From: Natronomonas salinimetallica
GTDB lineage: Archaea; Halobacteriota; Halobacteria; Halobacteriales; Haloarculaceae
DNA length: 64,000 bases
Direction of reading: 5' to 3'
Assembly (NCBI RefSeq): GCF_013839515.1
Contig: NZ_JACDNQ010000001.1
Coordinates: 146,691 to 210,690 of the forward strand
The position numbers were made by a program, and so were the translations under genes. Below, piece after piece: positions 36,590 through 63,539 of the stretch. Each line of letters starts with the position of its first letter. Within the stretch, counting starts at the first letter, position 1. A model generated the notes under the pieces. The model was not told the origin of the DNA, made no database searches, and saw only the letters and a list, made by a program, of their open reading frames with translations.

Positions 36590-37603
36590 ATGCCCTACGA
36601 TCGGCTCCCGCGGCATCTTGCGACCTCGGACTCGCCGACGGTCACGACGCTCCCGGACGGGAGCATCGACCACTACTGTTCGGTCTCCGGCGGCGCTGAA
36701 GCGCTCGAGACACGGGCGTCGTTCGCCCGCGGGATCCTCGGCGACCGAAGCTCCTTCGGGTTTCACGTCGAGACGACAGAACCTGGCGGGCAGGCGGTCA
36801 ACGCCGCGAAACAGCTCCACGGGCTTGGCGGGGACGTGACCTGTTATGGCCACCTTGAGGACCCCGTCTTCGAGCCGCTACCGTTCGAGACGGTTTCGAT
36901 GGGTGATCCCTCGACTGTCTACGTCCTCGAGTTCGCCGACAGGGACGTCATGTTCGTCGACGACTCGGCGCTCACGGACTGGACGCTGGAGGAGATACGA
37001 CGCGTCGGCGGTCTCCCGGACGTACTCCACAGCGACGCGGTCTGTTGTAGCAACTGGACGTCCGCGTCCGGCTTAGAGGCCGCGTTTCATCGGCTGGGGA
37101 CCGAGGAGGCGGGACGGGTTCCGTTCGTGTTCGATCCGGGAGACGTGGTCGGCAACAGCCCCGACAGGATGGAGGCGTTACACGACGCACTCGCCGCCCT
37201 ACAGAATACGTTCGACGTGGTTTACAACGGGAACCGGGAGGAGGTCCGGGCGACGGCCGATCCCCTCGGGGCCTTCGAGTCCGACATCGAACGCCTCGCT
37301 GCGATCCGGGAGGCGACGGGCATCACGGCCGCCGTCATGCACGCTCGCGACGAGGCCGCCGTCGCGGCGGGCGACGGGCGGACGCGCGTCGAGAACTACC
37401 GCGCTCTCAGCCCCGAGCGCCACACCGGGGGCGGCGATCGGTTCAGCGGGGCGTTGACCCACGCGCTGGCGTGTGGGTGGGACTGGGACGTCGCGCTGGC
37501 GTGTGCGAACGCCTGTGCGACGTACTACGTCGAGTCGGGGGAGACCGGCACCGCCGCCGACGTCGCACGCCTCGTCGAGGAACGGCCGGCCGCCGGTCCG
37601 TGA
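36590..37603 (+). CDS. PfkB-family carbohydrate kinase (ribokinase superfamily)
   Basis: The 337-residue protein has the substrate-binding PGGQAVNAAKQLHGLGG (about residues 65-81) and the C-terminal signature GGGDRFSGALTHALACG, which contains the catalytic aspartate. The usual GAGD is GGGD here. Substrate may be a sugar or nucleoside. It is probably a single gene; its 3' end lies in a 27-bp tandem duplication. Confidence 0.85.
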   Translation: MPYDRLPRHLATSDSPTVTTLPDGSIDHYCSVSGGAEALETRASFARGILGDRSSFGFHVETTEPGGQAVNAAKQLHGLGGDVTCYGHLEDPVFEPLPFETVSMGDPSTVYVLEFADRDVMFVDDSALTDWTLEEIRRVGGLPDVLHSDAVCCSNWTSASGLEAAFHRLGTEEAGRVPFVFDPGDVVGNSPDRMEALHDALAALQNTFDVVYNGNREEVRATADPLGAFESDIERLAAIREATGITAAVMHARDEAAVAAGDGRTRVENYRALSPERHTGGGDRFSGALTHALACGWDWDVALACANACATYYVESGETGTAADVARLVEERPAAGP

Positions 37604-37643
37604 CGCGAGAGATCGGCCGCCGGTCCGTGACGCGAGAGATCGG
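37590..37643. repeat. 27-bp tandem duplication spanning the pfkB-type stop codon
   Basis: Two identical 27-bp units lie at 37590-37616 and 37617-37643. The first contains the gene's stop codon, the second repeats the same end just downstream. The 86-bp palindromic element starts 21 bp further on. Confidence 0.9.
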
Positions 37644-37664
37644 CCGGTCGAGCGCCGATCGGAT

Positions 37665-37750
37665 CTATAGTAGAGACCGGAAGACGATACACACTCGACC
37701 GCACGGCGGCAGTGCGATCGACGTGTGAATAGTTGCGATGTTCACTATAG
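37665..37750. mobile_element. 86-bp palindromic dispersed element, copy 1
   Basis: The element begins CTATAGTAGAGA and ends in CACTATAG, so the ends are inverted. The middle has an inverted repeat around CGACCGCAC and GTGCGATCG. Its length and sequence match the copies at 44779 and 59114. It lies between a kinase gene and a universal stress gene, both intact. It may be a MITE-like remnant or a structured RNA. The rest of the gap to 37862 shows nothing else. Confidence 0.8.
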
Positions 37751-44778: not shown

Positions 44779-44864
44779 CTATAGTAGAGATCGAAAGACA
44801 ATACATACTCGACCGCACGGCGGCCGTGCGGTCGATGTGTAACTAGTTGCGATGTCTACTATAG
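44779..44864. mobile_element. 86-bp palindromic dispersed element, copy 2
   Basis: The ends CTATAGTAG and CTACTATAG are perfect 9-bp inverted repeats; arm pairing extends to about 15 bp with one mismatch. The central stem CGACCGCACG / CGTGCGGTCG is perfect with a 5-nt loop, so this is the best-paired copy. It overlaps the last 22 bp of the membrane protein gene at 44843, supplying its final codons and stop. Confidence 0.85.
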
Positions 44865-50793: not shown

Positions 50794-51013
50794 ATACTGT
50801 CGGACGTAATTTCGTGAATACCTGATACTGACGGACAAAAGAATGTACACACGACGCACGAGGATCACGCCGTTCGACGGAGCGAACGGCGGATCACTCG
50901 TGAGTCGGTTTCATTTGATTTCGTCCACCAGTATGAATCGTTCAGATAGACGAAACCGTACTGTGACACGACGCTCAGAGATTTTCGATTCAAGTAGTTA
51001 CGTCCGACAGTAT
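50794..51013. mobile_element. Outer element with 16-bp perfect terminal inverted repeats
   Basis: ATACTGTCGGACGTAA at 50794-50809 is matched exactly by its reverse complement at 50998-51013. A further TGAAT is shared a few bases inward on both sides. The span is 220 bp; without the 110-bp inner element (50825-50934) it would be 110 bp. No coding capacity is seen, so it is probably a MITE-type remnant interrupted by a second one. It ends 16 bp before the 3' end of engB. Confidence 0.8.
50825..50934 (+). mobile_element. 110-bp terminal-inverted-repeat element, copy 1 (nested)
   Basis: The ends are ATACTGACGGAC and GTCCACCAGTAT (inverted, ten of twelve matched). A central hairpin is GCCGTTCG-acggag-CGAACGGC. 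It matches the element at 63430-63539 in reverse orientation over all 110 bp with one base difference. It has no open reading frame of its own. Confidence 0.88.
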
Positions 51014-59002: not shown

Positions 59003-59097
59003 GACGTCCGGCGGAACGCGCCGGCTGGATGACGTCCGGCGGAACGCGCCGGCTGGATGACGTCCGGCGGAACGCGCCGGCTGGATGACGTCCGTGG
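59003..59097. repeat. 28-bp tandem repeat in the 58.9-59.3 kb gap
   Basis: Three identical 28-bp units (59003, 59031, 59059) and a partial fourth. Each unit contains the hairpin CCGGCG-gaacg-CGCCGG. The 363-bp gap 58922-59284 holds this repeat, the third copy of the 86-bp palindromic element and the promoter of the next gene; nothing else is visible. Confidence 0.92.
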
Positions 59098-59113: not shown

Positions 59114-59199
59114 CTATAGTAGGGATCGGAAGACAAGACACACTCGACCGCACGGCGGCAGTGCGATCGATGTGTACATAGTTGCGATGTCCACTATAG
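59114..59199. mobile_element. 86-bp palindromic dispersed element, copy 3
   Basis: The sequence matches copies at 37665 and 44779, with ends CTATAGTAG and CCACTATAG. As in copy 1, a 27-28 bp tandem repeat ends about 17-21 bp before it. It lies upstream of the promoter of the HTH gene at 59285. Confidence 0.85.
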
Positions 59200-63430: not shown

Positions 63431-63539
63431 TACTGGTGGACGAAATCAAATGAAACCGACTCACGAGTGATCCGCCGTTCGCTCCGTCGAACGGCGTGAT
63501 CCTCGTGCGTCGTGTGTACATTCTTTTGTTCGTCAGTAT
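63430..63539 (-). mobile_element. 110-bp terminal-inverted-repeat element, copy 2
   Basis: This copy runs from ATACTGGTGGAC to CGTCAGTAT and is the reverse complement of 50825-50934 with a single base difference. It directly follows the ModE-like stop codon. No outer 16-bp inverted repeat surrounds it. The remaining sequence to 63609 has the promoter of the next gene. Confidence 0.88.

Follow-up and report, generated by a model that had tools for sequence, protein, structure and literature searches.

The window, a stretch of 64,000 nucleotides from Natronomonas salinimetallica, holds three copies of a short palindromic repeat, the parts of which are as follows.

Copy A, 37665..37750, + strand: C, TA duplication 37666-37667, 80-bp element 37668-37747, TA 37748-37749, G; borders set by analogy with empty sites in Haloarcula
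Copy B, 44779..44864, + strand: 80-bp element 44782-44861 between TA duplications, with outer C and G
Copy B, outer stem: 44780-44796 pairs with 44847-44863
Copy B, inner stem: 44805-44818 pairs with 44826-44840
Copy C, 59114..59199, + strand: element 59117-59196 between TA duplications, with outer C and G

As the original prediction held, the three copies lie at these coordinates, are each 86 bp long, and share both the inverted ends CTATAGT/ACTATAG and a central stem, CGACCGCAC. They align with one another without gaps. The same prediction took 86 bp as the unit; this is indeed the length of the window copies, but the mobile unit is 80 bp, within a full layout of C-TA-80 bp-TA-G. Positions 1 and 86 of the 86-bp unit are far more variable between copies than the remainder, because the outermost C and G are part of a CTAG target. 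Copies A and C are each closely preceded by perfect tandem repeats, 27-bp and 28-bp (37587-37646; 59003-59094).

Copies in the host genome and the site of insertion

Within the host genome, searched as 2.78 Mb in 30 contigs, blastn located the element at no fewer than 41 different places (43 rows, two being the palindromic reverse of listed copies), the weakest of the 41 with an E value of 1.2e-23, and end patterns recovered 63 left ends and 67 right ends, with none for the reversed controls. Intact distinct copies differ by a mean of 8.4%. The fixed length seen in the window does not extend to all of these, as some host copies depart from 86 bp through nested insertions (195, 194 and 496 bp), a dimer, tandem growth or truncation. 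The dimer is head-to-tail, with an exact 80-bp period and no TA between units (L078 2103-2300, host C23:234703-234867), and at four places the right end has expanded to 17- or 18-bp tandem arrays (L052 2196-2352, L051 2550-2678, L060 2014-2166 and L042 2792-2961). No autonomous copy was found among the host left ends. Short, without a transposase gene, present in many copies and bounded by terminal inverted repeats, the element has in these respects the make-up of a MITE.

The manner of insertion is documented by empty sites in Haloarcula. At one site, filled in H. hispanica (L112, G070), H. amylolytica JCM 13557 (L129, G065) has a single CTAG; at a second, filled in H. amylolytica (L117, G065), it is H. 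hispanica (L112:3713-3914, G070) that has the single CTAG. Flank identity is 96.5-97% at both sites, one in each direction, and both filled forms read C-TA-80 bp-TA-G. Since the empty sites contain a single CTAG, the second TA arose by duplication of the target, to which the outer C and G also belong; the element thus inserts at the TA of CTAG with duplication of the TA. At two more sites many Haloarcula species are empty too, but the correspondence is less exact, with diverged junction bases. In a congener (G003), the sequences on either side of copy B can be aligned and have no element between them, i.e. the homologous place is empty. At the L083 site the right flank yielded no alignment. 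Of 36 intact host copies, 14 have C..G flanks, whereas CTAG accounts for 14 of the 1109 TA sites in the window. CTAG is scarce in the window (14 observed vs 37 expected from trinucleotides), so the element prefers a rare target. IS630 is said to prefer TA within CTAG (title of Tenzen and Ohtsubo 1991, cited in PMC2170065).

REP/BIME elements are palindromes of 20-40 bp that make no target duplication, often form mosaic arrays and depend on a RAYT transposase. Because the element comes as a single 80-bp unit and duplicates TA on insertion, this class, one of three offered at the outset, is unsupported. Of the other two, a structured small RNA has no Rfam match, but paired changes conserve the fold, which may have a role in DNA or RNA. 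The MITE is supported by the duplicated target, the empty sites, the inverted repeats at the termini and, as described below, an insertion sequence (IS) with similar ends. PATEs, which derive from IS605 and lack both terminal inverted repeats and target duplication, were likewise rejected, as the element shows both.

Hairpin structure and paired changes

The terminal inverted repeats are imperfect, span about 17 bp counting the TA, and continue as a long imperfect hairpin. In a gapless structure alignment of 59 diverse copies, the two-helix hairpin pairs 94.9% of cells, compared with at most 44% for slid controls, and 15 of 30 pairs are altered on both sides, in both arms and including the inner hairpin. 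The search for compensatory change advised in the original prediction has accordingly been run and gave strong paired change in both helices, i.e. 104 compensatory cells vs 31.1 +/- 4.7 after shuffling, with 0 of 500 shuffles as high, in a test that is inflated by related rows and uses a structure derived from the same sequences. The inner stem of a single copy, in a genome of the genus Halomicrobium (L107, G118), has been swapped for AAGGGCA/TGCCCTT. The strand bias of G-T relative to A-C pairs favoured neither an RNA nor a DNA fold.

Selection on pairing is one reading of these changes; arm-to-arm correction in replication, by template switch, could produce them without selection. It is conceivable, and put forward tentatively, that selection acts on the inner hairpin and the exact length, because an extruded DNA hairpin or its transcript is recognised in transposition or has control over adjacent genes. 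Another reading is that the repeat is retained for host function, as a structured RNA gene or a regulatory element, with mobility incidental; compensatory changes in both helices and the fixed length speak for it. It is nevertheless very improbable, given the empty sites in close relatives, the nested insertions and truncations among copies, the lack of any Rfam match at gathering score over window positions 36000-60500, and the capacity of template switching between palindrome arms to mimic selected pairing.

The probable mover

A partner was found by screening IS630 (DDE_3) loci. The congener G003 carries an IS630 element of 1062 bp including TA, with ends TATAGTAGTCGGTAGAA / TATAGTAGACACTAGAA and C/G flanks, whose transposase lies in two frames that meet at an A9 run, a likely site of frameshifting. 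Transposases of this type have HTH and DDE_3 domains and are assigned to NCBIfam IS630. Homologues in further genomes and in Natrinema and Natronorubrum plasmids have similar ends (TATAGTAG...), and relatives, named ISNamo16 and ISNpe3 in the NCBI annotation, occur in the host's genus and in Natrialbaceae. The advice to look for an IS with the same ends was therefore borne out by this group, to whose ends those of the element are identical at 16-22 of 30 bases. With the 7 search bases left out, 12-15 of 23 positions of the element ends agree with the right end of the IS (p 0 to 0.01 by shuffling); the similarity beyond TATAGTAG is moderate but above chance.

The host genome contains no DDE_3 protein and no ISNamo16-like transposase, and the IS left-end pattern gave one weak match there, below controls. 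Among ten element-rich Haloarculaceae genomes, a whole ISNamo16-like transposase is present in G003 only, that of G084 being broken; G070 has only 45% relatives, and in the other seven none was detected at 1e-20. A matching transposase is present in Natrialba magadii pNMAG02 (L336), where, judging from the ends, the outermost TATAGTA ends around the gene look like an 80-bp element holding an inserted IS. Among the candidate partners that were rejected, the TACTGACGG group of IS630 elements has different ends, and no PF01609 element among the loci of four genomes had the ends of the repeat. The one candidate, L281, resembles an IS that has inserted into a copy. The 1.49 Mb of DNA examined contained no other IS with such ends.

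Taken together, the element is quite probably a non-autonomous MITE of 80 bp, without a gene, that is moved in trans, most likely by a transposase of the IS630 family (Tc1/mariner-like) and, within it, of the ISNamo16/ISNpe3 group. Target duplication, empty sites and ends related to a full transposon all suit a MITE, and TA duplication and CTAG preference suit IS630 mobilisation, for which the host lacks a matching transposase in the same genome. Since most element-rich Haloarculaceae genomes, the host's included, are without the transposase, we infer the mover from sequence. By end similarity and IS630 biochemistry, an ISNamo16/ISNpe3-group transposase would bind the ends, excise the element and paste it at TA; master copies would have amplified separately in each lineage, and the host may since have lost this enzyme or may never have retained its gene. 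The lack of ISNamo16-like genes in most element-rich genomes also accords with movement by some other TA-duplicating transposase, the likeness to ISNamo16 ends being convergence on a TATAG terminus, and the Correia elements of Neisseria also start with TATAG and have no known mover (PMC2649163). That alternative is rather unlikely, as the similarity to ISNamo16 ends continues beyond the first 8 bases, the behaviour at CTAG/TA is in keeping with IS630, and neither the 1.49 Mb nor the PF01609 loci offered another IS with such ends.

A second gene-less repeat, of about 108 bp, is found at window positions 50826-50933, where it sits within another element, and 63431-63538. Its ends, TACTGACGGACAAAA / TACTGGTGGACGAAA, are like those of local IS630 elements, and flanks at three insertions (the 50826-50933 copy, L040 and the L207 type) suggest duplication of TGA, not TA.

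Relatives in kind, spread and meaning

The closest analogue is RUP of Streptococcus pneumoniae, a gene-less repeat of about 100 bp for which IS630-Spn1 has been proposed as mover (PMC2229807). Both are gene-less, intergenic and of high copy number, with a TA target and inverted ends resembling an IS630 element (PMC2229807); unlike RUP, the present element is 80 bp long, resides in haloarchaea, has an inner hairpin conserved between families and lacks its partner IS in most element-rich genomes. Correia elements share TATAG ends, a TA target and a long stem-loop (PMC2649163, PMC2229807), but are 104-157 bp long, have ends that diverge after TATAG and have no known mover. ISNamo16 and ISNpe3 themselves share the TATAGTAG... 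ends, the C/G flanks and the TA at both ends, and differ in being about 1.06 kb long with a two-frame transposase. The small mobile repeats (SMRs) of Haloquadratum walsbyi (80-110 bp) come near in size, inverted ends, absence of a gene, high copy number and absence of a resident transposase (PMC3119063). That the element is an SMR is nonetheless the least probable reading of all, since SMRs are by description without target duplication and with ends that match no transposon, both of which fail here. The literature searched gave no name for the element; we take it to be a new family of IS630-type MITE with an unusually conserved interior, but it may be catalogued in ISfinder.

Of 146 genomes in the host's family, 35 carry the end pattern, as do 52 plasmid records, mainly from Natrialbaceae and Haloarculaceae and also from Halostella; the viral and phage collections searched gave no matches. 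In a sample of named genome contigs, end-to-end length is 84 bp in 75 of 76 paired copies and 83 bp in one. Similarity between the Haloarcula and Natronorubrum types is 94-95%, and that of the host type to either of them 75-79%, which suggests horizontal spread. In Halomicrobium katesii (L207 2736-2902; L258 4041-4208), copies of the 80-bp element contain a further small hairpin element, whose ends are TACGG; the one in L258 has an inner stem (GACCGCAC..GTGCGGTC) similar to that of the 80-bp element.

The catalogue of MITEs in haloarchaea is thin, and small mobile repeats there had been called enigmatic; exact borders, a target site and a likely mover are now given for a repeat common to many haloarchaea. 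The many CTAG sites that are polymorphic between named Haloarcula species constitute a natural test that is already at hand. The paired changes in the interior pose a testable question as to what MITE interiors do, and, if the interior is indeed under selection, this would be a MITE with a functional interior, beyond its ends, conserved across haloarchaeal families.
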